Shown in pieces: positions 30,176 to 61,450 of a stretch of 64,000 nucleotides of DNA. This stretch comes from Corallium rubrum. Its lineage: Eukaryota > Cnidaria > Anthozoa > Scleralcyonacea > Coralliidae. Made by a program: the position numbers and the translations under genes. The notes under the pieces were generated by a model. It was not told the origin of the DNA. It saw only the letters and a program-made list of their open reading frames with translations, and ran no database searches. The stretch spans positions 28,501-92,500 of the forward strand of contig CAXIUP010000118.1 in the NCBI GenBank assembly GCA_964035015.1, written 5' to 3'. How positions within the stretch are numbered: the stretch's first letter is position 1; the number at the start of each line of letters is the position of its first letter.

Positions 30176-30629
30176 AGTAGTGGTAGAGAAGAGACTATTT
30201 TTTTAATGTGTTGGGGACTGGCACTAGTTATTAACCAATCAGATTGCAGTATTTTTTTCATTAGCCAATCAGCGTTGAGCTGATATAAAATTAGCATAAT
30301 TTTGGCCGGGGGGAGATCGAGAGTGGGTGTTGGCTCTCTTGATTAGCATGTTGTTTTTTAGGGGGGTATGGGGCGGGGTTTTTTTTTGGGGTGGGGTGGG
30401 GTGTGGGGGTGGTGGGGGTTGGGAGTTGGTGGTGGTGGTGTGTGTGGTGTGTGTGGTTATGTGGTTTATTGTTCTGCGTGCGTGTGTTGTGTGCGCTTGT
30501 ATGTGTTAGTAGTAGTAGTGGGTAGTAGTAGTAGGAGCAGCCAGGAGCAGCACTACACCGGATGTATCGCTCTCGCTAGTTAGGGTGAAGTGATTGTGAA
30601 ATCTTAGATGTGTGATTATTAGTAAATAT
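30176..30629. repeat. Left inverted terminal repeat of the provirus
   Basis: It matches the complement of 61018-61450 nearly base for base. Differences are short indels, such as extra trinucleotides in the gtagtagtag run near 30510-30540. It holds a CCAAT/CCAAT/TATA module and a G-rich stretch at 30360-30450. A 60-codon Gly/Val-rich frame occurs in both repeats, but it is a composition effect rather than a gene. Confidence 0.9.
30235..30290 (+). promoter_or_regulatory. Inward promoter in the left terminal repeat (two CCAAT boxes and TATA)
   Basis: CCAAT at 30235-30239 and 30265-30269 (both within CCAATCAG) is followed 14 bases later by TATAAAA at 30284-30290. The arrangement faces into the element and is preserved in mirror image at 61335-61390. 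A downstream transcript start is expected near 30315-30320. No ORF follows closely, so it may drive a spliced or non-coding transcript. Confidence 0.5.
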
Positions 30630-31737
30630 TTTTTACCGAAATGTAAATGAAGCTCTACAAAAAGATGGGAATCAGTAAATGACATCCATCTTATTCTAAA
30701 GCTTTATCTAAAACATCTTCTATCCATTTTAAAAAATCTTTTTTTTTTGTTTCTTTTGATTTCTTTTGTGAAATTTTAGACGTGTGAATAATATATGTAA
30801 ATGAAGCTTTACCAAAGACGGAAATCAGTAAATGGTGTCCGTCTTATTTTAAAGCTTTATCTAAAATATTTATTGTAATCTTCCATCTTGTAAAAAATCT
30901 TTTGTTTTTTGTTTCTTCTGATTTCTTGTTATTTTTACAACCATAACAATACAAACACAACAATACCCCGTGACATTTATTGATATGTCGCGTGCTATTA
31001 TTGCTGTTGTTTTGCTAAGTGACATCTTGTTTCTTCTGATTCCTTCCTTCTTCTTGTTGTTCTTTGGAGAGAGAGATAACTGAGCGAAGAGGCTAACCCA
31101 GAGGTAGATAAAAAACGTTTAGAATTTTATTCACATCTGGGGAAGTCTATCCAACAGTCTTTCTTTTCTTTCTTTCTTTGACTTCTTCTCCATCAGTTTT
31201 TAAAGTTTTTCTTGAGGAGACCCAGAGCACGAACCTTCATTCTTTCTTTCTTTCTTGTCTTTTTTTTTTTTGTTGTCTTTCAACGTGATGGTAAGAGAAA
31301 GATTATAGTTTGTTTTTTTATAGTCTTTGTCTTAACCATCGCGACTCAAGAACAATTATTACTGTTCCATGCCGAACCAGTGCGCATACGCTTTGTCTTT
31401 CTTGTTTTTCCCGGTATGTAAATGAAGCTCTCCATGTATAAAAAAGACTGAATCCTCTGAGAAAAAACTGTTTAATTTAAAGCATTTCTCGTTTTGCTAC
31501 TAATTAAAATAGCAGAAAGAGAAATGCCATACAATGTTAGGTTAAATCAATTGTAATCAAAGAGAAGACTAAAGAAATCGTAAAAAATAGACTTTACGGT
31601 TACTCCGTCTTCTTGTTGACAACATTGGTTAAAATCCAGGGTTCTTTCTGCAATTTCGATGATTTCTAATTAAGCTATGAAAACCATTTTCTAAAGTTTT
31701 ATTAGAATATTTTATTTAATAATTTCCAAGGACATCT
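30630..31737. other. Left subterminal non-coding region with a 172-bp tandem repeat
   Basis: Two copies of about 172 bp (30595-30766 and 30767-30939) share tgtgaaatyttagaygtgtga and gtaaatgaagctytac. The first copy starts inside the terminal repeat. After that there are pyrimidine-rich runs (ttctttc) near 31140-31260. No supported gene. Confidence 0.55.
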
Positions 31738-31938
31738 TCAATTAAATATATATCTTTTACGCCAACGTTCTTGTCTATTTTCACAATCGCATCTCTGGTA
31801 TATTTTACACACGACAGCTTTAGGATAATTTCTTCGACAAAAATCACAAAATACTTCATAAACTTCGCATTCGTGACATGTGTAGTAAATGTGATTTACA
31901 TTTTGAATTTGATTATCACATCTGTAACAGCATTTCAT
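31738..31938 (-). CDS. Small zinc-binding protein, family Z copy 1
   Basis: The 66-codon frame starts at ATG 31938. Cysteine pairs are C-C-Y-R-C-D, T-C-H-E-C-E-V, C-D-F-C-R-R and R-C-D-C-E-N-R, giving at least two zinc sites. The same spacing and the markers (Y/F)-x-T-C-(x)2-C-(E/D)-V, C-D-(F/L)-C-R-R and R-W occur in the protein at 38491-38700, so the virus carries two paralogs. A transcriptional or ubiquitin-related role is possible for such small multi-zinc proteins but not shown. Confidence 0.6.
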   Translation of the reverse strand: MKCCYRCDNQIQNVNHIYYTCHECEVYEVFCDFCRRNYPKAVVCKIYQRCDCENRQERWRKRYIFN

Positions 31939-32660
31939 GGTGGCGACGACGTATAATATCTCCTCGCCAAGAATAAATGAATACTATAGTCAAGTATAAC
32001 TATCCATTTATACTTGTAAAGGATATAATAAATTCGCCCATTCATTCCGTTTCTTCTTTTTTTTTTCATGGTTTTGAATTTGATTATAACACCTGTAACA
32101 GCATTTCATGGTGGTGGTGGTAGTCTCCTTCGCCAAGAATAAATATGAATACTATAGTCAATATAACTAGAGAGAACCGTAAAGAGTGGGAACAAAATTA
32201 ACAATTAGCTTTATTTCCATTCTTCACGTTTCTCTCTGATATATTGAATATCGCAAATATTGGTGTTGTTTTGCTAAGCGATGTTTCTTCTCAGTTCTTG
32301 AAGCAACTCAACACGCATAAATTATCTGTGATTTGTGTGTGTTGGGTTACCTTAAGAAAAAAAAAAGATTTGTCTTCGTTTGTTTGAATCTTATCAGTTT
32401 TTCTTTGATTTCTTAGAGAGAAAGCTTTGTCAACGTTTTTAGAAACCGTGATGAAAGAAGAGATACTAGCTAGACAAGAATTTCTTTTATCATCACGTGT
32501 CCAAGACGTTCAAGACTATCGTATTACCATGTTGATACGTCTTCTTGAGAGAGAAATAATTGAGAGAGAGAGGCTATCTGTAACAGCATTTCATGGCGGG
32601 CGAAAACGTATATCTCATTTACAAGAACAAAAGAATATATGACAAGTATATATCCGTTTA
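31900..32660. repeat. Three copies of the 5' end of the family Z gene
   Basis: The start and upstream region of the zinc-binding gene (ctgtaacagcatttcatgg with adjacent tcgccaagaataaatatgaatactatagtc) recur at about 32080-32165 and, more diverged, at 32575-32660. The second and third copies hit stop codons after about 20 and 6 codons. They look like decayed duplicates of a tandem gene array. Confidence 0.65.
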
Positions 32661-33857
32661 TACTTGTAATGAGATAATAAATTCTGTTTGACTTCTTGTA
32701 TCTTGCCTTGTCTTGTCTTGCCTTGTCTTGTCATGTTTCATCATGCGTCTGGGTCGGCAAAGAAAGACATAAAGTTCTTTCTTTGCCGAACCAGTACAAG
32801 AGAGAAACATAGCCTCTGTTGTCTTCGTTCGTTCGTTCATTGTTTTCTTAAACGTGATGATAGAAGAAAGACTCGTTAGTTATTAACGAGATCTTTCCTC
32901 CATCATTGCGTTTCAAGACCGGCGTTGAATTTTCAGCTAGCTCAATTCATCAAATTTTCTTATGTACCTGTAACAACATACATACATACAACATACAATA
33001 CGATTTTAGCGTTACTCACCGTCAAACTGGGTTCAGAAGGGATGTAGTTTTGAACTCAGAACGATTTTTTACACCCTAATATGAAATTTGTTTTGAATTT
33101 CTAATTGGTTCTGGGAAAAACGATTCTGGGTAAGAAAAATCGGTAAATTTCGTATGCCTTTCGATTCTGGGTAAGAAAAACGGAAAATTTCGTATTCCTT
33201 TTGTTTTGAATCTTAATTGATTCTGGGAAAACATCATATTATCGATTCTGGGTAAGAAAACGGAAAATTTCGTATTCCTTTTGTTTTGAATTCTTAATTG
33301 ATTCTGGAAAAACATCATATTATCGATTCTGGGTAAGAAAACGGAAAATTTCGTATTTCTTTTGTTTTGAATTCTTAATTGGTTCTGGGAAAATTGGTTC
33401 TGGGTAAAACATTGCATTATCGATTCTGGCTGCGACCCTTTTGTTATTAATGGTTCGAAACCGGAAAAAAAAATTTAATTGACGTTGAGTGGGAATTGGA
33501 ATTAATTAAAAAATGATGATGAATGCTGAACGAAAAAATTTGATTGACGCGACTCGCTTTCGATGTTCAACCTCGTTGGAATTAATTAAAAATGAGATGA
33601 GAGATGAGATGAATGCTGAACGTCAGCTCCATTTTATGACTCGCTTAATCACTCCTCAGTGGCGAGAGATCCCTATCAGCACGAATTGTGAGTGATTTAA
33701 GCAAAAACGTGCTTTTTTCAGTTATTACGTGCAAATGTGTGTGTATGTGTGGATGAAATTGATTTTTTTTATGTATTTTTATGAATAAATTTAAAAAATA
33801 ATCTATATAAAATTTGACAGGCAACTTGATTTGACATAATTCAACTGATTTTTGAAG
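31939..33857. other. Left-arm region with repeats and no firm gene
   Basis: Apart from the family Z copies it contains an open frame at 32427-32642 (coiled-coil-like, overlapping a decayed copy), a cttgtcttgcc simple repeat near 32700-32740, and a 60-codon frame at 33513-33695 built on a duplicated gatgaatgctgaacg segment. None is supported as a gene. Confidence 0.45.
33060..33430. repeat. Tandem array of about 82-bp units in the left arm
   Basis: Units contain cgattctgggtaagaaaa, cggaaaatttcgtatt and ttgaattcttaattg. The best copies start near 33162, 33243 and 33325, with partial units at both ends. The array lies in the sub-terminal region, like another array at 58130-58585. Confidence 0.7.
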
Positions 33858-34674: not shown

Positions 34675-34962
34675 TTCCCTCCACAAAGTTTACCCATACA
34701 AAAATAAAACACTTCATTTAAGTCAACATCAAGGGGTTCTATGTTAATTTTTCAAGTGGGCTTTTAACATCCGGTTAGAATCTGTAAAATTAAATATTCT
34801 ACTATGTATCGGTAAATTAAATATTTTTTCTTCGTGTGTTGAATTGCAAAAAAGAAAATTACGCGTCTTATTGGATGAAAAAATTAATTAGTTTAAAAAT
34901 ATGCAGTATATATAATACGGTAAAAATTAGATTTGACATTTTTTGGAAGACGTTCGATAAAG

Positions 34963-35757
34963 ATGGAACAATTCTACAAGTTCATTAGTGAAAATAAGAT
35001 CGACATCAATGAGGTTATGAGACTGAATAACGAACGATTAGTCAGAGAACAACAGCAGCAATCAACAGCAAGTACAATCACAGCAAGTACAATCACAGCA
35101 GCAGCAGATAAACGAAGACAACAACAGGTTGAGAGGCTAGAAAAGGAACGCCAAGTTGCGATTGAGAAACAACGAGATCAACATATTCAATATCCTCCTA
35201 CTATGGTATCGATGGGGGAGATTTACACCCAGATGGCTACACCGAGTTTTCCCCAGTTATCGCCTCTATCTGATTGTGCACCGACTCCATTTATGGAATC
35301 TGTAATAGACGAAGGCGAAGGAGAACCAGAAGGAAATAAAGAAGAAGAAGACGGTGGTGGTGTTAATGAGGAGTTACTTAATTATATATTTCCAGAAGAG
35401 AGTTCTCGACAGACAGCGGCGGTTAGACCCCAAGGGAAAAATATTGACATTCTGAAATATGCATTCAACGAAGTGGAACAACAGGCGAGGTTAGAAGAAC
35501 ATGTAGATAAGAGAAATTATAGACGTACACTTATTTTTAAAAAAAAGGAAATGCTTGTAGGTACGTATGGTATATTAAATAGACAGGATAGAGACATAGT
35601 AGTGACGGCTGAGAACAAATTTAGAGAATTGAAATATATTTACAATGATAAACAAAAAAAAATTACAAAATTAGTTAAGTTGAAAGATAAGTTAGCGACG
35701 CTAGAGCTGATTGCAGCGCGATATATATTACCAGATAAAACTGGTAAAAAAAAGTAA
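34963..35757 (+). CDS. Gln-rich coiled-coil protein with acidic centre, unknown function
   Basis: This is a 264-codon frame from ATG 34963. An N-terminal helix leads into a Gln-rich tract and a Q-R-(x)-Q-Q-V-E-R-L-E-K-E-R coiled coil. An acidic Gly/Glu segment follows, then a basic C-terminal domain with Y-R-R-T-L-I-F-K-K-K-E-M-L and a helix ending in K-T-G-K-K-K. The layout suggests a DNA- or protein-binding regulator. It heads a plus-strand run with the Bcl-2-like and Fic genes. Confidence 0.55.
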   Translation: MEQFYKFISENKIDINEVMRLNNERLVREQQQQSTASTITASTITAAADKRRQQQVERLEKERQVAIEKQRDQHIQYPPTMVSMGEIYTQMATPSFPQLSPLSDCAPTPFMESVIDEGEGEPEGNKEEEDGGGVNEELLNYIFPEESSRQTAAVRPQGKNIDILKYAFNEVEQQARLEEHVDKRNYRRTLIFKKKEMLVGTYGILNRQDRDIVVTAENKFRELKYIYNDKQKKITKLVKLKDKLATLELIAARYILPDKTGKKK

Positions 35758-35918: not shown

Positions 35919-36260
35919 ATGGATATTATATTAGACGAGGTGAATAAAGCTGGTGTTCTTACGCGCGGGAGGATATTTGAGGGGAAAATTAAAGAATGCA
36001 TTTTTGACCAATCACGCCTATTTAAAAATATATCTGCTCAAATTTCGAAACATCAATTTCAGGATATTTATGAAGCGATTCAGCGTTATACTATTGGGGA
36101 TATTATTGCGTATTATTCGTTGGTAATCGTGTTTTTTGAAGGCGTGGAAAACCAGGATTTTTTTATTAGAGATATTACAAGAATCACGTGTCAACATCTT
36201 AAAGATTGTTGCGCCGACGTGTATTTTGACACCGCTTTTTGGGGTCTATCGACGAAATGA
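35919..36260 (+). CDS. Possible Bcl-2-like protein
   Basis: This is a 113-codon all-helical protein. The segment G-D-I-I-A-Y-Y-S-L-V-I-V-F-F sits where the BH1 region and central helix of Bcl-2 proteins would be (usual pattern W-G-R-I-V-A-F-F-x-F). The C-terminal I-T-R-I-T-C-Q-H-L ... D-T-A-F-W could be a BH2-like end. The key BH1 Trp and Arg are absent and there is no C-terminal anchor, so this rests on weak pattern matching. The stop overlaps the Fic start as ATGA. Confidence 0.3.
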   Translation: MDIILDEVNKAGVLTRGRIFEGKIKECIFDQSRLFKNISAQISKHQFQDIYEAIQRYTIGDIIAYYSLVIVFFEGVENQDFFIRDITRITCQHLKDCCADVYFDTAFWGLSTK

Positions 36261-36868
36261 ATTGGGAACATCATTTAAGAATTAAAATATTTTCCTATTA
36301 TGTTGTACTCATGGAAGAAGACGAAGAGGATATATTTTTTTTTTACAAGTGTGCAAAATATGCACGAGGATTGAGTGATTTTTATCGATTAAAAAAATCA
36401 AAACGAGAACAAATGCAAATAAGTGAAATATGCGTTTATTTACATAAGCGTAGTATGAAAAATTACAACGAGGGTGAATATTCCAGAAATTACAGATATT
36501 GTGGTAGTAATCATACACCTCCAGCGCCTGAGTATATAGAATTATACATGGAATTATTAGATGAACATTATTGTAGAATTAAAGTTGACAGTGATGATGA
36601 CGTGTTGAATTTGATACCTACACGAATATATTATATATTCGAATATATACATCCGTTTGGTGATGGTAATGGACGTGTGGGAAAAGCTTTACACGCTATA
36701 TTGAGAAATAATTTGACGTGTGGAGTAAAGTCTTTTAAACAACATAAAATGTTATGTGAGCAATTAGAAATATTGCAATGTAAAAAAGGCCAACGTGTTT
36801 TTGAAGATAGAAAATCACATTTGTCTATGTTGTTTAATTTGAAAGATATATTAGAGAAATTTATGTAA
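36257..36868 (+). CDS. Fic-domain protein (predicted AMP-transferase)
   Basis: This is a 203-codon frame from ATG 36257, in an ATGA overlap with the previous gene. The active-site motif H-P-F-G-D-G-N-G-R (residues 132-140) is complete, including the catalytic His, the Asp and the Arg that hold the nucleotide. Upstream, N-Y-R-Y-C-G-S-N-H-T-P-P-A-P is the usual beta-hairpin block, and P-T-R-I-Y-Y-I-F-E-Y-I leads into the motif. Fic enzymes transfer AMP or other nucleotide moieties to protein hydroxyls. No inhibitory (S/T)-x-x-x-E-(G/N) helix is obvious, so the enzyme may be unrestrained. A role in altering host proteins is inferred. Confidence 0.85.
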   Translation: MNWEHHLRIKIFSYYVVLMEEDEEDIFFFYKCAKYARGLSDFYRLKKSKREQMQISEICVYLHKRSMKNYNEGEYSRNYRYCGSNHTPPAPEYIELYMELLDEHYCRIKVDSDDDVLNLIPTRIYYIFEYIHPFGDGNGRVGKALHAILRNNLTCGVKSFKQHKMLCEQLEILQCKKGQRVFEDRKSHLSMLFNLKDILEKFM

Positions 36869-37498
36869 ATAATTTATAAAATTACTCGAACGATATATAG
36901 ATTTAAAGAATTTACGAATAAAACTTATTATGTCGTTATTGAAACCGTCAGCGTATACGATACGTATCGTGTGCTCGTTTGTATGTTGTTGGGTGAGTAT
37001 ATATGCAGCTGGTTCAAGACTAGTTAACGTGATAGCTGGTTCTGAAAGATATGTTAAGTTTTGTTTTATTTTATTTATTGATTTTTTTGACACAGTGTCA
37101 TAATCAAACATTTCAAATTCACGTGTGTCTACATGTGATGAATTTTTTTCCTCACAATGTTCAAATAAACACATTTCATGATTTTTCTCTCTCTCTTCTC
37201 CTAAAATATCAACATCTTCTTCTTCTGAAATAATATCAAAAACATTGTAAGTATGTGATTTTTTTTGAATCATTCCGCGAGGATTGTGTTTTTCACAAAA
37301 ACAAATAAAGCAACAGGCTATATTTAGCAAAAATTTTACACTTATCTCACCGTCTTTGCATTTAAGCGCTTGGTGGAAAAAATTTGGTGATTTACAATAC
37401 ATATAGACTGCTATACTCACACCTTCATCACCGTACTTTTTATATATATATATGTAAATACGGCGTGTAATGTAGTGTACGATTTCTTGTTCCAACAT
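36851..37498 (-). CDS. Arm cassette gene B, left copy
   Basis: This is a 215-codon frame. It shares with 55097-55828 the order Y-G-(x)n, F-(C/Y)-C-E-(K/D)-H-N-P-(R/L)-G-M, then E-(M/I)-C-(x4)-C-(x)n-H, and V-(x)-K-K-(x)n-K. Conserved Cys and His suggest a structural zinc site. It overlaps its upstream partner (gene A) by 82 bp and converges with the Fic gene, sharing 18 bp. No known family. Confidence 0.55.
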   Translation of the reverse strand: MLEQEIVHYITRRIYIYIYKKYGDEGVSIAVYMYCKSPNFFHQALKCKDGEISVKFLLNIACCFICFCEKHNPRGMIQKKSHTYNVFDIISEEEDVDILGEEREKNHEMCLFEHCEEKNSSHVDTREFEMFDYDTVSKKSINKIKQNLTYLSEPAITLTSLEPAAYILTQQHTNEHTIRIVYADGFNNDIISFIRKFFKSIYRSSNFINYLHKFL

Positions 37499-38100
37499 TG
37501 ACGATATATATAGAAAGAGTAAGGCACATGCATGCGATTGTTATTTAAAAGAGCTACACGGTGATAAATTTCACTATGCCATTGTTCAAAATCCACGGGT
37601 AATATAGGAAATAAAAAAGAATTATATATATGACACCCTCTTTTAGGAAAAAATGAATAAATAAATCGTTTGTCTTTTACTAACACTATTTGACGTCCTT
37701 CATTTATAACACACCAATTTTCACCTTGTTTATACATATAGGGAATTGTCATATAATAATCTTCATTTCTTGCAATGACGTGACGTAATTTTCCAGCACC
37801 AGGTAATACATTCCCACCATAGTATCTCCAATAGTGGAGGGGTATACACCAACTACGTGTAGCCTTCCGCTTCGGCTGTTTTCGTTGTGGAATTAGTCTT
37901 ATGTAGCCACCCTCGTAGATATCCATTAACCCCATCAACCAGTACAACAACCCGATTTCTCGGTTGGGAAAGAAACGAAAACACGTATGCATCAGCACCA
38001 TTTTTAATAAATCAAATAAATCAGCGTCAGTTAATTCTTTTTCTTCTTCTTCAACACGCTTGCGTTTCCTGTCTTTTTTTGTTGCTGAACGTTTACTCAT
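37417..38100 (-). CDS. Arm cassette gene A, left copy
   Basis: The 227-codon frame starts M-S-K-R-S-A-T-K-K and contains G-L-L-Y-W-L-M-G-L-M-D-I-Y-E-G-G-Y-I, matching the right-arm copy at 55904-56257 (G-L-L-Y-W-I-A-G-V-L-D-Y-Y-E-G-D-Y-I). The C-terminal part is much longer than in the right copy. The N-terminus is basic and may be a nuclear signal. Unknown function. Confidence 0.55.
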   Translation of the reverse strand: MSKRSATKKDRKRKRVEEEEKELTDADLFDLLKMVLMHTCFRFFPNREIGLLYWLMGLMDIYEGGYIRLIPQRKQPKRKATRSWCIPLHYWRYYGGNVLPGAGKLRHVIARNEDYYMTIPYMYKQGENWCVINEGRQIVLVKDKRFIYSFFPKRGCHIYNSFLFPILPVDFEQWHSEIYHRVALLNNNRMHVPYSFYIYRQCWNKKSYTTLHAVFTYIYIKSTVMKV

Positions 38101-38227
38101 CGTGAATTTTTTTATTTCTAAGGTTGGTAGAACTTTTTTCGTTTTTAAGGAGAGGCACCTACAATTTTTTTTGATTTTTTTTGTTCTTTTAAAAAAATAA
38201 ATTAGAAATTATAATTGGTGAATTTAT

Positions 38228-40514: not shown

Positions 40515-40763
40515 TTATTTTAAATAATATTTTTTTGGTTGCATTCTACCACCAAATTGCTGAAATGTGTCTACATCCGGTTGCACCAATCCACCAAATT
40601 GTTTTTTTTTAAATTTTTTCACTTTCACTACGCCATTTTTTATTTTTCTTATAATTTTGTTTTTGCTGGATTCAAAATCTTTCATAATTTTCATTACTTT
40701 TTGAATTTTTTTACTACCACCTCTTTGTCTTTTTTTTCCTCGAAAACCTCGGTTTCTGCTCAT
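40515..40763 (-). CDS. Small basic GG-motif protein, core-peptide-like (copy 1)
   Basis: The 82-codon frame starts at ATG 40763, in ATGA overlap with the SET gene stop. It is highly basic, with R-G-K-K-R-Q-R-G-G-S and two further G-G sites (K-K-Q-F-G-G-L, F-Q-Q-F-G-G-R). Such sites before small residues resemble adenain cleavage sites of adenovirus core proteins. Probably a packaged DNA-binding peptide. Confidence 0.55.
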   Translation of the reverse strand: MSRNRGFRGKKRQRGGSKKIQKVMKIMKDFESSKNKIIRKIKNGVVKVKKFKKKQFGGLVQPDVDTFQQFGGRMQPKKYYLK

Positions 40764-41326
40764 TTTTTCGTTTTTTTGAAGTATCCACGTGGCCAATACT
40801 CATCACCATAATCGGCAAAAATTTCCTGATGGGGTTTTATACCCGCTGTTGTTTGTAATTTAAATCGATTATTGTATTTTGTTGTTCCTGTAAAACAAGC
40901 GTTATTTTTATATCGCGATCCTTTTGCATCATTACAAAATCGAGGTGCACCGTCGGTTGACTTATATGCGTCGACGCAGTGGCGGGGACCATCGCACAAG
41001 CTATATTGAGCGATTGTTTTACTACCGTATTTTCGATCCATATCTTTTACCGTAGTTCTTTCACCTGTATACGTAGCGACGTTAGTATTGCGTTTAAAAG
41101 GTTTCTTCCAACTGTACAAACCTTTACCTGCATTTGGAATTCGTGATTTTTTAACACGTAAGTTATCTTGTTTTGCTAAATGAATCCAACATTTGTGTGT
41201 GTGTGCTGTTCTTTTTCGACACCGTTTTCTTTTTAACGTGAAGCTTCGACATTGTAAAACAGCACGTACATTTTGTGAGTTTAAACTCATTATCCGACCA
41301 CCTCTATTTACCGGTTGTTTAGCCAT
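40760..41326 (-). CDS. SET-domain protein methyltransferase
   Basis: This is a 188-codon frame. SET motifs are in order: G-K-G-L-Y (67-71), Y-T-G-E (86-89), R-F-C-N-D-A (129-134, in place of R-F-I-N-H-S) and D-Y-G-D-E-Y-W (172-178). The N-terminal 60 residues are basic with C-R-(x)n-C-R-K-R-T. SET enzymes methylate lysines, often on histones. The N-D-A variant occurs in several viral and bacterial SET proteins. A role in silencing host chromatin or modifying viral core proteins is inferred. Its partner, the next gene in the unit, is a histone-like basic peptide. Confidence 0.8.
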   Translation of the reverse strand: MAKQPVNRGGRIMSLNSQNVRAVLQCRSFTLKRKRCRKRTAHTHKCWIHLAKQDNLRVKKSRIPNAGKGLYSWKKPFKRNTNVATYTGERTTVKDMDRKYGSKTIAQYSLCDGPRHCVDAYKSTDGAPRFCNDAKGSRYKNNACFTGTTKYNNRFKLQTTAGIKPHQEIFADYGDEYWPRGYFKKTKK

Positions 41327-41777: not shown

Positions 41778-41954
41778 ATGGGTGAAATGTGTTCTAAAGA
41801 TAAACCTTTTTTCACTTTTAATTGTATAAATATACGTGATTCAGAACACGTCGTAATCGAACGCGTTGATGGCGGTAGTGAAGTAAAAGAAGAAGAAGAA
41901 AAAGAGACAAGAAAATTTCCTTTTTTTTTTAGAAGTAAAAAAAGAAATGAGTGA
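41778..41954 (+). CDS. Short frame overlapping the PolB start
   Basis: A 58-codon frame overlaps the PolB ATG (41947) by 8 bases. It encodes a peptide with N-C-I-N-I-R, an acidic E-E-E-E-K-E run and a basic end. It could regulate PolB translation as an upstream ORF or be a small gene. Confidence 0.35.
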   Translation: MGEMCSKDKPFFTFNCINIRDSEHVVIERVDGGSEVKEEEEKETRKFPFFFRSKKRNE

Positions 41955-44900
41955 GAAAAATCCCTATGTATTTACAAATGAAGATGTGAGTGAGTTAAGG
42001 GAGTTACTAGAAAAACGTAAAAAAAAAGGAGATGGAAAACGAGTTGAAGAAGAAGAAGAAGATTTTAAAACTAATACTATCGAGTCTAGTTATAATGAAA
42101 AATTTAAATTTTCTCAAAAAACACTACACGTTTCGATTGCGCGAAAATCGGGTATGAATTTTATCGCGTTTATTCAATCGTTACGTATAGTGTTTACTTA
42201 TTTACTTAATGTAGCTCGAGCGTCTACAAGTTCAGAGAATGATTATGTACGTTTTATTTTTTCACACGCACCAAAATCTTATTTTTCAACTGCTGTTCTT
42301 CAACTTAAAGATTTTAACGTCAATTTTTTACTTAATATTTTTGAAAAAATGATGCAAAGCAACCGTACGTTGATCGCTGACGGGTGGGAATCAAACGTAG
42401 TCATTCAAACTTTTCCACATACGTATAATAAAAATAAAAAAACCAACAAACAACTGGGTAAAAAAAACATATATCGACAATTAGGTAGTGGCGGTGGAGG
42501 GGGTGACGATGAGGGTGGTGGGGGTAAAAATGTGGAAAAATACGGTCGTGATCAACGGATGGGTGTTTTTTCCATCGTATGTGACGGGTTAAATAAAATC
42601 ATCAAAAATTGTTGCTTCGCAGTTAGTTTACTAGTGAGTTTGTCGTGGTTAAAAAAAAAAGACACACGGTATGTGGCGATGGAAAGATCCCCACACACAG
42701 CTCTCGACACACTGTACAGTATTGACGAGGTTCGTGAGATTTATGACAAATGCGGTCTAGTTGAAGGATGTTGTGTGGGGTCAAAGCATTACGATGGTGT
42801 TTATCAGAATTTTCTTAAACAACAGGGTATTGATTTAGTAGTATATTCGGATCAATTTGATAACGACATAGTGTATGATTCACGATGCGATGAAGAAGGT
42901 AATTTAATTAAGTTAACCAACGACGTTGTTTGTTTATGGTTAAATAATAAACATTACGATGTCGTCTTAAGCATGGTTAAGTTTTCAAAATTACCACCGA
43001 GCAAATTTTGCGTAAGATGTATGAATTATTACTCACATCACGAACGTAAAAATACACATATATGTTATAACCATTTGACATGTCAACGTTGCTACGAACA
43101 AGCCAAATGCCGTCTCGTCGTCGACTGCAAAATTGAGTGTTCTAATTGTAATATTTTATTTTATAATAATAAATGTTTTTTAGCTCATTTAACAAACCGT
43201 GTTTTTCCCCCTTTACAACCTAACCACGGGAAATTAACACCGTGTAGTTACTTTTTTTTTTGTCAAACTTGTGATAAGATTGTTCCTCGATTTCGTTTTT
43301 TCTCTGCAAAGAATGTAAAAAAGCACGACTGTAACAAACAATTTTGTCATCACTGTAATGACTATAAAGATAAAACGCATTTTTGTTATATGAAAACCGT
43401 GAAAAAAAAAAAAGAAGTTGAACAACCTACTTTATTTTTTTTTGATTTTGAAACGCGCGTTGACGTGAATAAATTAATGGTACCATATTATTGCATCGTG
43501 CAAAAAGTATGTCGTAAGTGTGAAAATATCGAGTTTAAAAAAAGTAAAAATTACATTGCGAGTGATATTCAACCCTGCTGTGGAAAACGTGAATTTATCT
43601 TTCAAGGAGATAATACTGTAGAGGATTTATGCGAGTTTTTATTAGCGCAAGAAAATTCTGTTTGGTTAGCGCATAATGGGGGACGTTTTGATACAATTTT
43701 TATTTTTCAATATCTCATTAATGAAAAAAAAATTTACCCTGACACTATAATGAATGGTTGTAAAATAATGATGTTGAAAATCCCTGATAAAAAAATAACT
43801 TTTTTCGATAGCTATTCATTTTTAAACATGAAATTGGCTAAAATTCCACAAACAATGGGGCTTGAGGAATTAACGAAAGGTTTTCATCCGTATAAATTTA
43901 CAGATTTAACCTATGTTGGGTGTATTGTATCGCGTGATTATTTCGATCTTGAAAATATGGAGAAGAAAACAAAAGTTGAATTTGAAAAATGGTATTTGAA
44001 AAAAAAAGAAAAAACATATGTATTTGAAGAAGAAATGTATTATTACTGTAGCTCAGATGTCGATATTTTACGAAAGGGTTGTGTTAAATTTGCTACGTTT
44101 ATGCGTGAAACTTCGGGGATCACTCCTTTTTACGATACAGAATGTATTACCATAGCGAGTTTGACGTTAAAAGTATTTCGCATGAATTTTTTAAGAGACA
44201 AATGTGTCGGTATTATACCCGCTAGCGGTTATAGAGGGCGCGCTAATCAAAGTGTTGTAGCGTTAATGTGGTTAGATAAAATAAATGCAGAAGAAGCAAA
44301 CGGTATGTTAGAGTATAAATGTTCGCGAAATGGTGAAAAGCAAATTTTGGGTCGTCATGTTGACGGCTTTTACGCCGACACCGTCTATCAATTTCACGGT
44401 TGCTATTTTCACGGTTGTCCGAAATGTTATTTTCCCTACGAAACGAATCGTTTAAATAATACAAAATTCACGCATCTTTACGCGAGTACAAAAAAATTCA
44501 CACATAGTATGGAAAAAGCCGGTTATAAAGTAATAGAAAAATGGGAGTGTGATTTTCGAGAAGAATGTAAAGTCACAAAAAAAACCATAGTTGAGAAAAA
44601 TATTTTTTACGCCGCTCATCTCCCATTAGAAGTAAGAGATGCGCTTTACGGTGGTCGAACATCACCTGTTTGCTTATTTAAAAAGACGAATATGAATGAG
44701 AAAATTCATTACGATGATTTTACATCTTTATACCCGTACGTTCAAAAAGCGAACAAATTTCCTGTCGGACACCCGACGATATATATTAAAGAAGAATGTC
44801 AACGTGTGAAAATATCTGAAGTATTCGGTTTAGTAAAATGTCGTATTCTACCACCGCAAAATTTGTATTTTCCCGTTTTACCCCTACGTCTTAACGAGAG

Positions 44901-45993: not shown

Positions 45994-46030
45994 ATTAAAC
46001 AAAGCTGTAATACCATTTCAACACCCGTTT

Positions 46031-48183: not shown

Positions 48184-48671
48184 ATTTTTTTTTTTTTTAA
48201 GAATTTTAAAGCAGCTCTTCGTTCATTAATGTTTAACATAAATTGTTTACTTGCGTTGTGTGATAAGTCGTATATTAAATCTGCGCGATTAATGTTTTTA
48301 CCCTCCATTCGAAGAGTGTTGTCTTTCAGTCCTTTTTTATTTAAAAATTCTATTATTTTTTTTTCAGCTAGTGTTTTTGTTTCTTGACTTTCCTTGGGTT
48401 TTTTTTCTTCTTTTTGTTTTGTTTCATCATCTCCAATTAAATTGTCGGCTTTACGTTTGAGAGCATTTTTTTGTTTTAAAAAACTCACTACGCTTTCACC
48501 GACATGTTTGTTTTGTTTAACAGCGTTTTCCATTGCCGCCTTTTTTTCTTCCAACTGAAATTCATCAGGTTTTTGTATTCCTTGAAGTAATTTTTTTTTT
48601 TGATGATCGTTTTTTAAATATTCAAACATCTCGTTCAATTTAACAGCGTCAACTAATTGTAATTTATTCAT
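48150..48671 (-). CDS. Lys-rich helical protein, unknown
   Basis: The 173-codon frame overlaps its neighbours at both ends (34 and 4 bp). Charged helices, then N-I-N-R-A-D-L-I-Y-D-L near the C-terminus. Possible virion protein. Confidence 0.5.
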   Translation of the reverse strand: MNKLQLVDAVKLNEMFEYLKNDHQKKKLLQGIQKPDEFQLEEKKAAMENAVKQNKHVGESVVSFLKQKNALKRKADNLIGDDETKQKEEKKPKESQETKTLAEKKIIEFLNKKGLKDNTLRMEGKNINRADLIYDLSHNASKQFMLNINERRAALKFLKKKKICQPISLKIMC

Positions 48672-49375
48672 TTTTCTTTTTCAAATTTACTTAAAAATTT
48701 AAGTGCTCTTTCAAATACAATACTGAGACAATGATCCTCGCATAACATGATCTTAAGATCATTTGAATTAATTTTTTTGGACACCATTTTTTTAAGTAAA
48801 TATAAATAATCATCGTTGCATTTTACCGGTATTCTTTTTTCCACAATATTTTTAGCTAAAAGTAATATTTTTTTTTTTAAATTTTCATCGTATAATTTAT
48901 GCTTTTTAATCATATTTACTTTAAAAAATTCTTTAAGCGAAGGGATGAATTTTTTTTTTTTTTTTTCCTTTTCTTTTTTCAACAAATGATGATATAATAT
49001 TAATGATTTTAACACACCCGTTTCATTTCCATCATCATCATCATCATCATCATTATCATCATCATCATCATCATCATCATCATTATCATCATCATCATCA
49101 TTATCATCATCATGATCATGATCATCATTATCATTCAATTCATTTTCTGAAAAATCAAATGATTTGTGTTTTTTTTGTTTTTTTGTTTTTTGTTCATTTT
49201 TTTCTTCTTCTTCTTCTTCTTCTTCTTCTTCTTCTTCTTCTTCTTCTTCTTCTTCTTCTTCTTCTTCTTCTTCTTCTTCTTCTTCTTCTTCTTCTTCTTC
49301 TTCTTCTTCTTCTTCTTCTTCTTCTTCTTTCTTTTTTTTTTCTTCTTCTTCTTTTTTTTTTTCTTTTTCATCCAT
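48668..49375 (-). CDS. Poly-Glu/poly-Asp protein with Lys-rich C-terminal domain
   Basis: This is a 235-codon frame. It has a Glu run of more than 40 encoded almost only by GAA (a pure trinucleotide repeat at about 49201-49330), then an Asp/Asn run encoded by GAT (about 49023-49130), then a 110-residue globular Lys-rich domain. Acidic tracts of this kind could bind basic core peptides as a chaperone. The repeat is likely length-variable. Confidence 0.55.
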   Translation of the reverse strand: MDEKEKKKEEEEKKKKEEEEEEEEEEEEEEEEEEEEEEEEEEEEEEEEEEEEEEEEEEKNEQKTKKQKKHKSFDFSENELNDNDDHDHDDDNDDDDDNDDDDDDDDDNDDDDDDDGNETGVLKSLILYHHLLKKEKEKKKKKFIPSLKEFFKVNMIKKHKLYDENLKKKILLLAKNIVEKRIPVKCNDDYLYLLKKMVSKKINSNDLKIMLCEDHCLSIVFERALKFLSKFEKEK

Positions 49376-49378
49376 TTT

Positions 49379-49557: not shown

Positions 49558-50871
49558 TTATACGTCGTATAACAGACGAGCTGGTGTTTTCATTCCGACT
49601 TTTATTTCATTACGAAATTCACCAATATAGAAAATGTTTCCCGCAGCAGTATCAACTGAAAAATTCATGTGGACGTTAACAACACCACTGGGGCGGTTAG
49701 GTAACACTTTCAAATGTGTGTCGGAATTTGTACTCAAATCAAAAGCTAAAACAGCAAAACCGTTTGTAAATTGCTCATAAGTTATCGGCATTTCAGAATG
49801 ATCTCTATTAAGAACATTACGTAATTGCTCGTATGCTTCAACTGAATTTTCTATTGTACCAATAGACACGCTATTTACTGTGACGTTTACATTTGAATAG
49901 CTCTCCCATCCGAAATTAAACACATTCGTTCCCATCGTGCCAACAAAATTGTTACGTCTCACGTACACTATAAATAATCGAACAGGGCATGATCCATTAA
50001 ACACATCGTTTTCAATATGTGTTCTTCGAAGACCAGCTATTGACGATGTTACTGTGCGAAATGTTGTCGAATAATATCGCGCTTCTTGCGAATCAGTGAC
50101 AAACGCTGTATTTAAAGCGTTGCTCAACTGGTCTTTTGGTTTGTAAACAGGTACTCGTATATGAAAATCTTCAAATGACATTGTCATATCAGCAAAAGCT
50201 ACATCCCCGTGATTCCCACCCATGAAAAGAAGTTGATAGGGTGCTCTTACATATTTTAGTTCCAATTTGAAAGCTGACGGTAAAAAAACTTCACCACCCG
50301 ATTCGCTAAAACACGGTAGATCAATTTTATCAATAAGTTGTACTTGGGCTATATTGTTCAGAAGAGTACGTCTATTTGCACTCCCCACATTATGTCCTCC
50401 AACGGTGTTCATATGTGAATGGGTATCAAAATATCCGCAATTTATTTGCTGTGAATCTTTATACATTTTAGGCGTTTCACGGGTAATAATTTTCATATAT
50501 GACGCAAAATAATTAAAATTACTAGCTGGTGTAATTAAACATTCATTAATCTTCAATTCTGCAGAGCGCCACCCAGTACGGAGAGGAAAAGGTGGTGGTA
50601 TAAAATTAGCATTTGCAAAAAGAGCAGCAGCAGGACCTCGTAGTGATACTTTCGCAAGCATTCTTGCATCACTTGTTTTTATCAACCCCACATTATTTCC
50701 TTGTCGTTTAAATGTATACGCATCTGCAAAAGGTGTATTGGGAATAGGGTGTATTACATCCATGCGATTTTCCGTAAAAAGATCATTAAAAGGTGTTGGT
50801 TTAAATAACTGTAAAGGTTTTGAAAATAATGTTTCGTGTTGATCGACCTCTTGATCGCGTGCTTGATCCAT
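49558..50871 (-). CDS. Major capsid protein (double jelly-roll hexon-like)
   Basis: This is a 437-codon frame. The second half has the marker order of adintovirus/Polinton capsids: D-V-F-N-G-S, F-N-F-G-W-E-S-Y-S-N-V-N-V-T-V, I-T-Y-E-Q-F-T-N-G-F-A-V-L-A-F-D-L-S, and a beta-rich end. The first half has P-P-P-F-P-L-R-T-G-W-R-S-A-E-L-K-I-N-E. Length and position, next to the core peptide, penton-like and integrase genes, support the call. Such proteins form the capsid shell as trimers. Confidence 0.8.
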   Translation of the reverse strand: MDQARDQEVDQHETLFSKPLQLFKPTPFNDLFTENRMDVIHPIPNTPFADAYTFKRQGNNVGLIKTSDARMLAKVSLRGPAAALFANANFIPPPFPLRTGWRSAELKINECLITPASNFNYFASYMKIITRETPKMYKDSQQINCGYFDTHSHMNTVGGHNVGSANRRTLLNNIAQVQLIDKIDLPCFSESGGEVFLPSAFKLELKYVRAPYQLLFMGGNHGDVAFADMTMSFEDFHIRVPVYKPKDQLSNALNTAFVTDSQEARYYSTTFRTVTSSIAGLRRTHIENDVFNGSCPVRLFIVYVRRNNFVGTMGTNVFNFGWESYSNVNVTVNSVSIGTIENSVEAYEQLRNVLNRDHSEMPITYEQFTNGFAVLAFDLSTNSDTHLKVLPNRPSGVVNVHMNFSVDTAAGNIFYIGEFRNEIKVGMKTPARLLYDV

Positions 50872-51424: not shown

Positions 51425-51904
51425 TTACTCCTCTTCAAACAAATTCAATGTGACCGTAATTTCTTCATCACGCAATCTTTTATCACTATCTTTTTCATAC
51501 ACGATAAAAAATTGGACTTTTTTTTCCATAGTGTTTGATAATAACATTAACGGTAATTTTTTTTTAGATTCTGTTTTTTTAGGGTTTTTTTCATCGTGAA
51601 ATAATAATAAACGTTTAGACAATAATATATGCTGATCAGCTGGAGATGCTATCCCCAAATAATAATTATTCAAATATGTTACATTTTCAATTTTTTTAGA
51701 ATCCAGATTGGTCTGAATATTAGAAAAATCTAATTTTCTGCGATATAATAAACGAAAATTTCCTCGAATATTTTTACATTCTATAGAATTTAAACTCCAT
51801 AATACGTTCTTATCACCATATGAAAAAGACGAAAAAGGAAATGAAATTTCTTTACTTGCCATTTCCATCCTATTTTCTTTCGCTTTAAGACAGAATTTAA
51901 GCAT
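51425..51904 (-). CDS. Hypothetical protein next to the penton-like gene
   Basis: The 159-codon beta-rich frame overlaps the penton-like gene by 8 bases. It alternates hydrophobic and charged residues (V-Q-F-F-I-V-Y, I-T-V-T-L-N-L-F) and has no Cys pairs. A second minor capsid or cement protein is plausible by position. Confidence 0.45.
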   Translation of the reverse strand: MLKFCLKAKENRMEMASKEISFPFSSFSYGDKNVLWSLNSIECKNIRGNFRLLYRRKLDFSNIQTNLDSKKIENVTYLNNYYLGIASPADQHILLSKRLLLFHDEKNPKKTESKKKLPLMLLSNTMEKKVQFFIVYEKDSDKRLRDEEITVTLNLFEEE

Positions 51905-52853
51905 AATGAACTACACCTTCGATGCTAACAGTTCCCGAATCAAAGGGTACTTTAACACCTACACTATCTTTTAACGCGATATGTAACGAAGAAATAGACG
52001 CTTTTTTAAATTTTCTTCTAACCGGTACAGATGGGGTGTAAATAATTAGTTCACCATTCCCTTTTCCTTGTTCGCTCCAACGAATCGGTACTGTACAAAT
52101 AAGTTCAGCAGATGAGTCACCAATAAAACTTCTTTCAAGCTCATCACAATAAACAAACATTTTATCTAGTCCATCAGATATGTCAGGTAAATGATCTGCT
52201 ACAACCGGTTGTGTTATATCATCAATTACGGCGCCAAATGTTGGTTGTTTAAATGATAAAATTTCATCCGCAAACCCTAGCATAAAAGCTAATTTCTTAG
52301 AAATTTTCAATGTAATATAAATACGAAAATTCGCAGTCTTTCTCGCCGATAATGATTTAGTTGACATATGATAGTAATCAACATTTTCCCCATCATATGC
52401 TACCGCCTTACCATGGAGGGCAATCCATGCAGATTCTTGATTCATCCAATATTCGCACCATACATTCGCGGCTATTTTTACTTTACCACCCGATGTTAAC
52501 ATAAATACTAAATCGTATTCATTTAAAGCGTTATTTAAATACCGCAATAAATTTTCTAAAGTATAGCACCCCTCTGGAATGATGAAGTTATCGGTAGTCA
52601 TGGTTATTTTGCTGCTCACGTATTTATCATCTGTTACACTATACTTAAAATTAACAAACTCATATTTTAAATTAAACCAACAAGAATCATCAGCAATATT
52701 TTTTGTCGTACCCGGGTAAGAAATTTCTGTTAATTCAAAAAACGCGTCGTGATTTATCGCATCAATCGGTTCGGCTAATTTCATTTCAAATTGATTCGTG
52801 TAATTTACCACACCATCATCTAAAACAGTATTGCTTAAAATTTGCAAATTCAT
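51897..52853 (-). CDS. Penton-like minor capsid protein
   Basis: This is a 318-codon frame. The N-terminal segment Y-T-N-Q-F-E-M-K-L-A-E-P-I, E-L-T-E-I-S-Y-P-G-T and L-E-N-L-L-R-Y-L-N matches the N-terminal pattern of invertebrate penton-like proteins. The second half has L-G-F-A-D-E, Y-C-D-E-L, I-G-D-S and a beta-rich end, and aligns in order with the fragment at 12107-12454. It is expected at the capsid vertices. Confidence 0.7.
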   Translation of the reverse strand: MNLQILSNTVLDDGVVNYTNQFEMKLAEPIDAINHDAFFELTEISYPGTTKNIADDSCWFNLKYEFVNFKYSVTDDKYVSSKITMTTDNFIIPEGCYTLENLLRYLNNALNEYDLVFMLTSGGKVKIAANVWCEYWMNQESAWIALHGKAVAYDGENVDYYHMSTKSLSARKTANFRIYITLKISKKLAFMLGFADEILSFKQPTFGAVIDDITQPVVADHLPDISDGLDKMFVYCDELERSFIGDSSAELICTVPIRWSEQGKGNGELIIYTPSVPVRRKFKKASISSLHIALKDSVGVKVPFDSGTVSIEGVVHYA

Positions 52854-53755
52854 AATGGTTGTAATTCTTCGCGATAAAATATTCCCGTAATTTTTTCACC
52901 GTTTAAATCCACCAATTCGTAGGTCACAGGATCCGTTACAAATACTTTTCTGATTTTAAATTTTTCGTTCGTCCAACGTCGTAGACTGCTTTTCTCAAAA
53001 ATATTCGTCTTTCCACGTGCTATTCGCACCAGCGTTCCTTCTTTCAAGACGTTTTTAGTAAAAATGACGGGGGATATCATATTACGTAATAATATATTTT
53101 TAATTTTTTTTTGTTTTTTACCCTCACGATAAAGCTCGTGGGGTGTGGCACCACCCAAACTTTTATGCGGTGAATTATTGTATCTTTCGAGAATTATGGG
53201 AAAATAAGTGTAATAATCATATTCACCCGTCAACGTTAAAACACGACGCACCATTGTTTTTAAAGTTTGAATTACTCTTTCAACGTGAGATGCTTTAATT
53301 TCTCGATTAAACGTGTGAAAAACTTCAAAATTGTATTTTTTACTCAAAGTTTTACGAATTATTTGAAATTCTGTTCCTTCATCGCATTGAATTTTTTTAG
53401 GAATTCCATCTTTTTTTAGAATTTTTTACATTTTTTCCGCTGTATTTTTTCCCGTTTTTTTCTTTAAGAATTCCACCCACACATAACGCGAATATACATC
53501 AATACACACAAGCCAATAACGAAATTGACGATTAAATCTCGCCAAATCTTTATTTTCTGCTAAATCAATTTCCCACTGATCGTTCTTTTCACTCACATGA
53601 ATATTTAATCGTCTATATTTTTTTCTAGCCAGTTTATGTTGTTTATATTTTTCTAATTGTTCCAATTCTAATGTTTCTCCTTTTAAAAGTCGCGAAGCTT
53701 TTTTAATAAAATCTTCATTAAACACCGTTTTTCTTTCTTTCTTCTTCTTCACCAT
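52850..53755 (-). pseudogene. Retroviral-type integrase with a single in-frame stop
   Basis: One 302-codon frame carries all three catalytic acids: D in W-E-I-D-L-A, D in Q-C-D-E-G-T-E-F, E in S-H-V-E-R-V-I-Q-T-L-K. P-H-K-S-L-G-G-A-T-P follows, and a C-terminal SH3-like part ends in Y-E-L-V-D-L-N-G-E. A lone TAA at 53426-53428 follows K-N-T-A-E-K-M, between the first and second catalytic acids. Everything else in the frame is intact. The enzyme inserts the linear genome with a short target duplication, matching the ends of this element. The stop is either a late mutation or a recoded codon. Confidence 0.85.
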
Positions 53756-53806
53756 TTCTTCACGTTTTTCTAAATAAAAGAAAAACGCTGTTTACTCCTT
53801 AACTGT

Positions 53807-54703
53807 TCAACAATTCTTAAACTGCGCAACAGTACGTCTGATATGTTCAAAATCATTAGTGTTTATAAGACTGACAAAATCTACTTTATCAGCTGGTTTT
53901 AAATTCTCATTCATCTCATCATTATATCTACAGATACAATCTTCTAAACTTAATTTTTTCGATATCGAATAAAAATAAATTAATTCAGCTAAAGCAAACG
54001 AATTTAATTTATTCACATCAGCATTTACTTTATTCACATCACACTCTACATCTGACTCACACGCTATTTCTTCTTCATGAACATTTTTCTTCTTCTTCAA
54101 TGCTGGTGTCGTTGTACTTGTTGATTTAGCAACAGGCTTTCTTTTTCTTCCACCAGCGTTGCCACACACATCGTGATGAAAACGGCTCAACTGTGTAGCG
54201 ATACCCAATAACGAATCTGTTTTTTTGAACGAGAAATTCCCCCATTCATCTGTCCATTCTTCTTCTTCTCCTTCTTCTCCATCCCCCGATGCATCCACAG
54301 CTGGTAGTTCATTTTCATCGAACGATAAATCATCGTCAGGAATGACTTCCTTTTTTTTTTGCACGACTAATTCGCCAGTTCCAAACTCACTAGAACGTAG
54401 CACCAAACGCAGCTCGTCATTTTTGTAATTTCGATAACGCGAAATCACAATATGAACACGTTCGCTCCAGTTAAAATTCCCATTAGCTTGTTGAATGACG
54501 TTAATCAGTTGAGGAATTGATTCCATCTCCAACTCCATCATCGATTGCATGATAAATTTCACACATGCTTTACTCGTGGGGTATGCCTTCACTAAAATTG
54601 GTTTACTGTTCTTCTTCTGAAGAGCCACCACTTTTTGAGAGAGATCTGCATACTTTTGAAGCACACGTTCGTTGCTCAAAAATTGTTTCAAATATAATTC
54701 CAT
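53807..54703 (-). CDS. Unknown 298-codon protein with acidic centre and nuclear-signal-like motif
   Basis: ATG at 54703 is chosen over an upstream GTG. An N-terminal helical domain (about 120 residues) is followed by an acidic tract (E-E-G-E-E-E-E-W-T-D-E), then R-K-R-K-P and K-K-K-K-N, then a C-terminal helical part. It is the first gene of the late minus-strand block, before the integrase. A DNA-binding or transactivator role is possible; none is shown. Confidence 0.5.
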   Translation of the reverse strand: MELYLKQFLSNERVLQKYADLSQKVVALQKKNSKPILVKAYPTSKACVKFIMQSMMELEMESIPQLINVIQQANGNFNWSERVHIVISRYRNYKNDELRLVLRSSEFGTGELVVQKKKEVIPDDDLSFDENELPAVDASGDGEEGEEEEWTDEWGNFSFKKTDSLLGIATQLSRFHHDVCGNAGGRKRKPVAKSTSTTTPALKKKKNVHEEEIACESDVECDVNKVNADVNKLNSFALAELIYFYSISKKLSLEDCICRYNDEMNENLKPADKVDFVSLINTNDFEHIRRTVAQFKNC

Positions 54704-54753
54704 GATGTTCACTTATCTGACGATTAATGACAAAAAACGTAACGCGTTCTCTG

Positions 54754-55096: not shown

Positions 55097-55828
55097 TCAT
55101 TTACTAAGCTGAATAATAATGTTTTGATCGTTAGGTAAAATAAAGTTTATATATCGTTGTTTACACATAGATTCATCCCGCGAACGCACATGAACGAGTG
55201 TATCTAAATTTGTTGTTCTTAGTTCAAAATATCCATAAGCACGCCGATCACTCAACGCTACGTGTACATAATTGCGAGAATATTTTTTACAATTTTTCAC
55301 TTTTTTTTTAAAAACGTATTGAGATTCTTTTAATCTATCTAAATGAGTCGCTCCGCACTTTTTCTTACAATTTTTATACATGCAAATTTCACGTGTTCTA
55401 TACATATAATTACAATAAAAATAATTTTCCCCATCATCAATCCTATCCAATTCCCATTCTAATTTTTTTTCAATAAACGATGTTATTGCTTCAATTGAAT
55501 ATTCTATTTTTCTCCTAGCCAATAACATACCCAAAGGATTATGATCCTCACAATAAAATAGAAAAATTAACACCAGCGTACGTAACAATTCAATATCAAA
55601 CAAAGCAAAGCTTGTAAACACATTTATAAAAATATCAGGTGCGATAGTAAACAGAAAATACGCTGTCATGAAAACTCTTTCGCCATACTGCGTGTTAATC
55701 CTGATTAATAATTGTCGTAGTGAATTATTTAACGGGTAGAGTACTTCACCCGTCACACTATTTACACAATATAATTTATGCTGATACATCGCGTGTTCTC
55801 TTCCCTCGACATCAAAGTAAATATGCAT
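55097..55828 (-). CDS. Arm cassette gene B, right copy
   Basis: This is a 243-codon frame from ATG 55828; a GTG lies upstream. It shares F-Y-C-E-D-H-N-P-L-G-M, E-I-C-M-Y-K-N-C and H-L-D-R-L with the left copy at 36851-37498. Hydrophobic helices precede the conserved Cys. Gene A lies directly upstream, as on the left arm. Confidence 0.55.
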   Translation of the reverse strand: MHIYFDVEGREHAMYQHKLYCVNSVTGEVLYPLNNSLRQLLIRINTQYGERVFMTAYFLFTIAPDIFINVFTSFALFDIELLRTLVLIFLFYCEDHNPLGMLLARRKIEYSIEAITSFIEKKLEWELDRIDDGENYFYCNYMYRTREICMYKNCKKKCGATHLDRLKESQYVFKKKVKNCKKYSRNYVHVALSDRRAYGYFELRTTNLDTLVHVRSRDESMCKQRYINFILPNDQNIIIQLSK

Positions 55829-55903
55829 AAAATAAGAGTATTCCGAATAAAAATTCACGTTGCAATTACGCGTTCACTTCAACATCACTCCGTCTCTCAT
55901 TGT

Positions 55904-56257
55904 TCAATACACACACCATTCGCTGGTCTTCATCTTCATCTTCGGCAATAAATATTCCCAACCATTTTCTAAAATAATATAATCCCCATTATCCTTGTAC
56001 AAATATACGCTGTTGCGAAATGAATAATCTATTACGTCTTCGTCTTCTTCTCTTTCTTCTTCTGGTGACCTTCTTTTAAATCCCAATATATAATCACCCT
56101 CATAGTAATCCAATACACCGGCTATCCAATACAACAACCCCATATATCGTGATGAAAAACGCCTCATTTCAGGTATTATGCAAAGTAACATAGATAGTTT
56201 AATAGCTGGTTCAACGCTGTTCATTTTCACACGACCGGTATGATCGCGTTTCGACAT
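55904..56257 (-). CDS. Arm cassette gene A, right copy (shorter)
   Basis: ATG at 56257 gives M-S-K-R-D-H-T-G, matching the M-S-K-R start of the left copy. The core G-L-L-Y-W-I-A-G-V-L-D-Y-Y-E-G-D-Y-I is conserved. It is 117 codons against 227 on the left, so the C-terminal domain is missing here or was gained there. A tandem copy of its 5' region follows (56239-56432). Confidence 0.55.
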   Translation of the reverse strand: MSKRDHTGRVKMNSVEPAIKLSMLLCIIPEMRRFSSRYMGLLYWIAGVLDYYEGDYILGFKRRSPEEEREEDEDVIDYSFRNSVYLYKDNGDYIILENGWEYLLPKMKMKTSEWCVY

Positions 56258-56432
56258 TGCTTTGAACCCGAGACAGAAAAAGAAAAAGCATATTTTGATA
56301 AATTTTTTTATTTGAAAATGAATATAATATATGTATGATCGCGTTTCGACATTGCTTTGAACCCGTAAAAAAGACAGAAAAAGAAAAAGCATGTAAATTT
56401 TTTATTTGAAAATGAATATATTATATTATATA
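56239..56432. repeat. Tandem duplication of the gene A 5' region
   Basis: Two units of about 96 bp (56239-56334 and 56335-56432) each contain tatgatcgcgtttcgacatt and the tttatttgaaaatgaatata segment. The second unit carries an extra ATG in the same direction. Confidence 0.75.
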
Positions 56433-60542: not shown

Positions 60543-60701
60543 ATGCGGTATAAAAAAAAAATTAAAAAAAGGAGAAAATGTTGTAGTGGTATAAAAACGA
60601 AAAAAATACAAAATACGTCAAAAAGCAGACAAAAAGGCGGATGGTGGGGAGTATTAAAAATCAAGAAAAAAAAAAAATATATATTAGAAGAAAAAAACTA
60701 A
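60543..60701 (+). CDS. Small basic GG-motif peptide, core-like (copy 3)
   Basis: This is a 52-codon frame. Lys/Arg-rich with S-R-Q-K-G-G-W-W. Sequence just after the stop, in another frame (60702-60786), may be its original C-terminus displaced by a frameshift. Part of a tandem pair with the next gene. Confidence 0.5.
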   Translation: MRYKKKIKKRRKCCSGIKTKKIQNTSKSRQKGGWWGVLKIKKKKKYILEEKN

Positions 60702-60786
60702 TATATTCTGTAAATGGTTCACAATTAGCATTTCAAAATATTCAACCCTTCGTTCAACAAAGACAAACTATCCATCATCATCTATA

Positions 60787-60945
60787 ATGATCCTAAAGAA
60801 AAAACGAAGAAAAAAAATAAAAAATATTAGAAGAAAAAAAACTAATAAATATTCTGTAAGTCAAAAAGGCGGATGGTGGTCAAAATTTAAAAAAAAGCAT
60901 TTTTCTCAGAAAGGTGGTGCACCCTGGTGGCATTTTGACTGGTGA
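60787..60945 (+). CDS. Small basic GG-motif peptide, core-like (copy 4)
   Basis: This is a 52-codon frame. K-K-K-R-R-K-K-I-K-N-I-R-R-K-K head, then S-Q-K-G-G-W-W-S-K and S-Q-K-G-G-A-P-W-W. The two Q-K-G-G sites resemble adenain cleavage sites. It lies about 70 bp from the right terminal repeat. Confidence 0.5.
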   Translation: MILKKKRRKKIKNIRRKKTNKYSVSQKGGWWSKFKKKHFSQKGGAPWWHFDW

Positions 60946-61017
60946 TAAAAAAAATGTAAAAAATAAACATTTGTTTTACAATTATTCTGTGCATTTTTTA
61001 TTCTAATTTAAAAATAA

Positions 61018-61450
61018 AAAAATATTGCTAATAATCACACGTCTAAGATTTCACAATCACTTCAGCCTGGCTAGCGAGAGCGATACATCCGGTACTGCTG
61101 CTCCTACTACTACTAACACATACAAGCGCACACAACACACGCACGCAGAACAATAAACCACATAACCACACACACCACACACACCACCACCACCAACTCC
61201 CAACCCCCACCACCCCCACACCCCACCCCACCCCAAAAAAAAACCCCACCCCATACCCCCCTAAAAAACAACAACATGCTAATGAAGAGAGCCAACACCC
61301 ACTCTCGATCTCCCCCCGGCCAAAATTATGCTAATTTTATATCAGCTCAACGCTGATTGGCTAATGAAAAAAATACTGCAATCTGATTGGTTAATAACTA
61401 GTGCCAGTCCCCAACACATTAAAAAAAATAGTCTCTTCTCTACCACTACT
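61018..61450. repeat. Right inverted terminal repeat of the provirus
   Basis: Inverted match to 30176-30629, ending ...ctctaccactact. It contains the C-rich complement of the G-rich stretch (61190-61260) and the mirror promoter. Differences from the left copy are small indels. Confidence 0.9.
61335..61390 (-). promoter_or_regulatory. Inward promoter in the right terminal repeat
   Basis: On the minus strand two CCAAT boxes (61386-61390 and 61356-61360) are followed by TATAAAA (61341-61335), the mirror image of 30235-30290. It points toward the core-like peptide genes, though those lie on the other strand. Confidence 0.5.

Follow-up and report, generated by a model that had tools for sequence, protein, structure and literature searches.

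The window analysed here (the whole 64,000-nucleotide stretch, from contig CAXIUP010000118.1) contains at positions 30176–61450 a 31,275-bp element that is very probably an endogenous Maverick-Polinton virus, most likely of a cnidarian. That it is an integrated virus with exact boundaries on both sides is well supported: it is bounded by inverted terminal repeats (ITRs) and by a duplicated target site, and it encodes a protein-primed DNA polymerase B (PolB), an A32-like packaging ATPase, a double jelly-roll major capsid protein, a putative adenain-like cysteine protease and a retroviral-like (rve) integrase, the last of these interrupted by a single in-frame stop codon. The insertion is probably fairly recent, though not pristine.

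The left ITR (30176–30635, ∼ 460 bp) starts with AGTAGTGG and the right ITR (61015–61450, ∼ 436 bp) has CCACTACT at its end; the inner limits of both are approximate. They carry (AGT)2//(ACT)2, a published end motif of Maverick-Polinton elements and the commonest one in vertebrate Mavericks (PMC8097293). When the first 470 bp of the element were aligned globally with its last 440 bp, 424 columns matched and 8 mismatched, and 7 gaps were opened, covering 46 columns. Six of the eight mismatches and four of the seven gaps lie past column 380, so that the outer 381 columns contain just 2 mismatches and 3 gaps. In the window, the only matches to the left ITR are itself and the right end; for the joined flanks, self-matches aside, they are repeats on the left flank side. 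Two copies of GACCA stand immediately outside the ITRs (30171–30175 and 61451–61455), making a 5-bp target duplication if the element has full AGTAGT/ACTACT ends. The original prediction, an earlier reading of the same DNA, had given ITRs of about 430–450 bp, the termini and a duplication of 5–6 bp; the shorter length, GACCA, follows from full ends, and the longer one, TGACCA, would mean that the right end is one terminal T short. Long G/T-rich runs inside the ITRs (30388–30457 and 61184–61272) might form G-quadruplexes. A short repeat (29769–29951) adjoins the left junction and has an inverted copy past the right one (63788–63892), both outside the provirus.

The + strand carries PolB followed by the ATPase. 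PolB (41947–45993, 1348 aa; PF03175, E = 2.9e-54) has the domain layout of Maverick-Polinton polymerases, with a terminal-protein (LF/PAD-like) domain at residues ∼ 40–160, a viral OTU-like domain at ∼ 195–342 and then the catalytic region, as judged by alignment, a predicted model with fold comparison, and motifs. It shares 61% and 59% of its residues with the homologues P0001 and P0002. The ATPase (45986–46669, stop-to-stop), another feature of the Maverick-Polinton kind, scores above the cut-off for PF04665 (2.7e-08) and has Walker motifs; its first ATG is at 46031, with the Walker A motif GPSQCGKT five residues downstream. In the PolB tree the protein groups with Paramuricea clavata (Octocorallia), the sole named organism in a clade of 25 rows, and the catalytic region is 43–47% identical to the P. 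clavata polymerases in the 10 rows listed. Because of this grouping we infer a cnidarian host, for which the relatives of PolB and of the capsid protein are the guide.

The − strand genes face this pair and comprise, from right to left, the integrase, a 318-aa protein, a 159-aa protein, a 96-residue frame, the major capsid protein, two more open reading frames (ORFs) and the protease. The order given for vertebrate Mavericks is PolB-ATPase facing integrase-minor capsid-PW-major capsid-protease (PMC8097293). The major capsid protein (49558–50871, 437 aa) has 21 homologues, the only named one being from P. clavata (31% identity), and its AlphaFold2 model, though of low confidence (pLDDT 58.5), gives matches in Foldseek and VIA that identify the predicted fold as the double jelly roll of Maverick-Polinton capsids. 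The protease gene (47348–47953) scores below the Pfam cut-off (PF00770, 0.0046) and is assigned provisionally from its HW and CGYW motifs and its Maverick position. The 318-aa protein (51897–52853), with no Pfam family and only two chance-level PDB matches (E 1.8 and 1.9), is by its position the probable minor capsid protein, and position likewise places the 159-aa ORF (51425–51904) where Mavericks have the PW gene. The 96-residue frame sits between that ORF and the major capsid gene, and the two other ORFs between the latter and the protease gene; a Glu/Asp/Lys-rich ORF, consisting mostly of triplet repeats, occupies 48668–49378 on the same strand.

The rve integrase, also typical of the Maverick-Polinton kind, is encoded on the − strand in two pieces (53429–53791 and 52850–53425) split by one in-frame TAA (53426–53428). 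The first piece contains the start of the rve domain (PF00665, 1.1e-4, below the Pfam cut-off) and the second has an rve_3 match of 0.13–0.18. The acidic residues of a DDE-type triad are present in the pieces, which lie at the integrase position of Mavericks. The PolB, ATPase, protease and capsid genes are all open, but because of this one stop codon the core set, which the original prediction had described as full, is not intact, and a new integration by the present copy on its own is unlikely. Upstream of the integrase lies a 301-aa ORF (53807–54712, − strand) with no Pfam family at E ≤ 1.

The element might, alternatively, be an adintovirus in the strict sense, that is, one with a hexon recognizable by BLASTp, an N-terminal OTU-like domain in PolB and a C-terminal chromodomain in the integrase (PMC11071296). 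The OTU-like domain and the rve integrase pieces are indeed present, and among the 50 BFVD matches listed for the capsid model are a MELD virus entry and two that bear the name adintovirus (E 1.1e-11 and 3.4e-7). None of the 21 capsid relatives bears an adintovirus name, although just one of them has any name at all and the search requires shared 5-residue words. The C-terminal integrase piece, searched by sequence profile only, showed no chromodomain in Pfam at E ≤ 0.5 (rve_3 alone was listed), and its ORF stops where the next gene starts. With no chromodomain found by sequence profile, we do not class the element as a strict adintovirus, an assignment that we consider doubtful. The description 'adintovirus-like' holds loosely, given the statement that Polintons and adintoviruses are largely synonymous (PMC10120064).

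The Maverick-Polinton element differs from its flanks in composition and, less evenly, in coding capacity. Its GC content, 0.328, is below that of the flanks (0.387 and 0.384), which confirms the A+T-richness noted earlier. It contains 22 ATG-initiated ORFs of at least 150 aa, compared with a mean of 0.15 and a maximum of 1 in 20 order-1 Markov replicates. ORF density, taken as the fraction of sequence that falls within ATG-initiated ORFs of 100 aa or more, is 83% at 34.2–57.0 kb, 9.5% at 30.6–34.2 kb and 38% at 57.0–61.0 kb, so that the claim that almost all frames are open is true of the central part and fails at the ends. Over its whole length the element has a density of 67%; the left flank has 54% and the right flank 22%, so that the element exceeds the former only modestly.

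These uneven figures bear on whether the element could be a dead fossil, inserted long ago and merely still showing long frames. The stop codon in the integrase, the ORF-poor ends, an overall density that only moderately exceeds the left flank's, and the 8 mismatches and 7 gaps between the ITRs would fit such a history. The excess of long ORFs over expectation, PolB and capsid proteins as long as their full-length homologues and the near-identity of the outer ITR columns would not, and we judge it unlikely. Thus 'nearly intact' is a fair description overall, qualified by one interrupted core gene and the ORF-poor ends, and the proposed recent integration is plausible from the similarity of the ITRs. 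A misassembly that fused two different elements is very improbable: the size is large for the Maverick-Polinton kind, but the ITRs match each other, the same 5 bp stand outside both, the core gene order is that of Mavericks and there is no N anywhere in the window. A plain transposon was rejected on the capsid and packaging genes, and a virophage or an adenovirus on the presence together of PolB, A32-like ATPase and rve integrase in Maverick gene order.

Of greatest interest in the element are its accessory genes. A Fic-domain protein is encoded at 36230–36868 on the + strand (PF02661, 5.7e-13; Fic proteins in PDB, best 1.6e-5). Its HPFGDGNGRVGK motif has Lys where the aligned PDB Fic protein has Arg, which is also the residue of the Fic consensus at this position. 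A SET-domain protein (40760–41326, − strand) scores just above the cut-off for PF00856 (6.7e-5), with PRDM9 as a PDB match (0.031). Also on the − strand is a block of two genes (stop-to-stop coordinates) present in two copies, a left one at 36851–38208, which pairs 37417–38208 with 36851–37540, and a right one at 55097–56401, which pairs 55904–56401 with 55097–55873. Gene order is identical in both copies, which have diverged: pairwise comparisons gave E values of 3e-9 and 1e-8, with identities of 31% across 90 columns and 22% across 128. A further 274-aa ORF (34933–35757, + strand) has no Pfam match above the cut-off. In the open-licence papers searched we found no publication linking 'Fic domain' with 'Polinton' or 'Maverick', and none of relevance, by title and start of abstract, linking any two of 'Polinton', 'SET domain' and 'AMPylation'. 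The Fic and SET proteins and the duplicated pair may act on the host cell. We tentatively suggest that a cnidarian lineage of Mavericks could have acquired host-modifying enzymes, among them Fic-type nucleotidyl-transferase-like and SET-type methyltransferase-like proteins, along with the two-gene block whose diverged copies flank the core. In this way it would have reached almost double the average length of intact vertebrate Mavericks, and the acquired products would act on infected animal cells.

The gene content is consistent with a life cycle in which the virus form would be linear double-stranded DNA. Replication would be primed at the inverted repeats by the N-terminal domain of PolB, and the OTU-like domain may serve to free the PolB-derived primer. 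The A32-like ATPase would then package the DNA into the double jelly-roll capsid, which the adenain-like protease would mature, and the rve integrase would insert the genome, giving a target duplication of 5 or 6 bp.

Several further features lie to the left of the provirus. Another PolB-like protein, different in kind and carrying an Endonuclease_7 domain, is found as an open copy at 1262–4408 (1048 aa) and a broken one at 16936–18317, the two being ∼ 60% identical. Inverted repeats of ∼ 600 bp (9903–10526 and 18444–19028; listed arms 92–98% alike) enclose ∼ 8 kb that includes the broken copy. A Helitron-type replication protein (6149–6655) and a weak helicase-like match (8824–9960), together with an ORF that matches Herpes_teg_N (20068–21603), suggest Helitron remains. 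A reverse transcriptase that weakly matches GIY-YIG, and part of another copy 70% identical to it (21836–22582 and 25695–27317), presumably derive from a Penelope-like element.

The analysis adds a well-delimited and unusually large Maverick from a lineage whose host-named relatives are octocorals, and its near-complete gene map with accessory enzymes offers a concrete basis for exploring whether the Mavericks of animals carry genes for effectors aimed at the host. The size claimed in the original prediction to be unusual is so by comparison with intact vertebrate Mavericks, which measure 12,723–24,620 bp (PMC8097293). Set against the vertebrate elements as described in that source, ours differs in length (31.3 kb versus 12.7–24.6 kb), in its target duplication (5 bp, assuming full ends, versus 6 bp) and in its extensive accessory regions, which include the Fic and SET genes. 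In what PMC11071296 says of adintoviruses, the OTU-like N-terminus of PolB, the rve integrase and the double jelly-roll capsid have their counterparts here, unlike the chromodomain, for which the integrase gave no profile match. According to PMC10120064, capsid genes from cnidarians lie outside the principal Maverick-Polinton cluster; the capsid protein of this element is divergent too, its sole named relative (one of 21) being cnidarian. The P. clavata polymerases share a clade with its PolB, yet they are not the nearest, since P0001 and P0002 are closer at 59–64% identity. With vertebrate Mavericks (PMC8097293) the element has in common the (AGT)2//(ACT)2 ends, an ITR length within their range and two facing gene modules with a matching core order and accessory regions on both sides.
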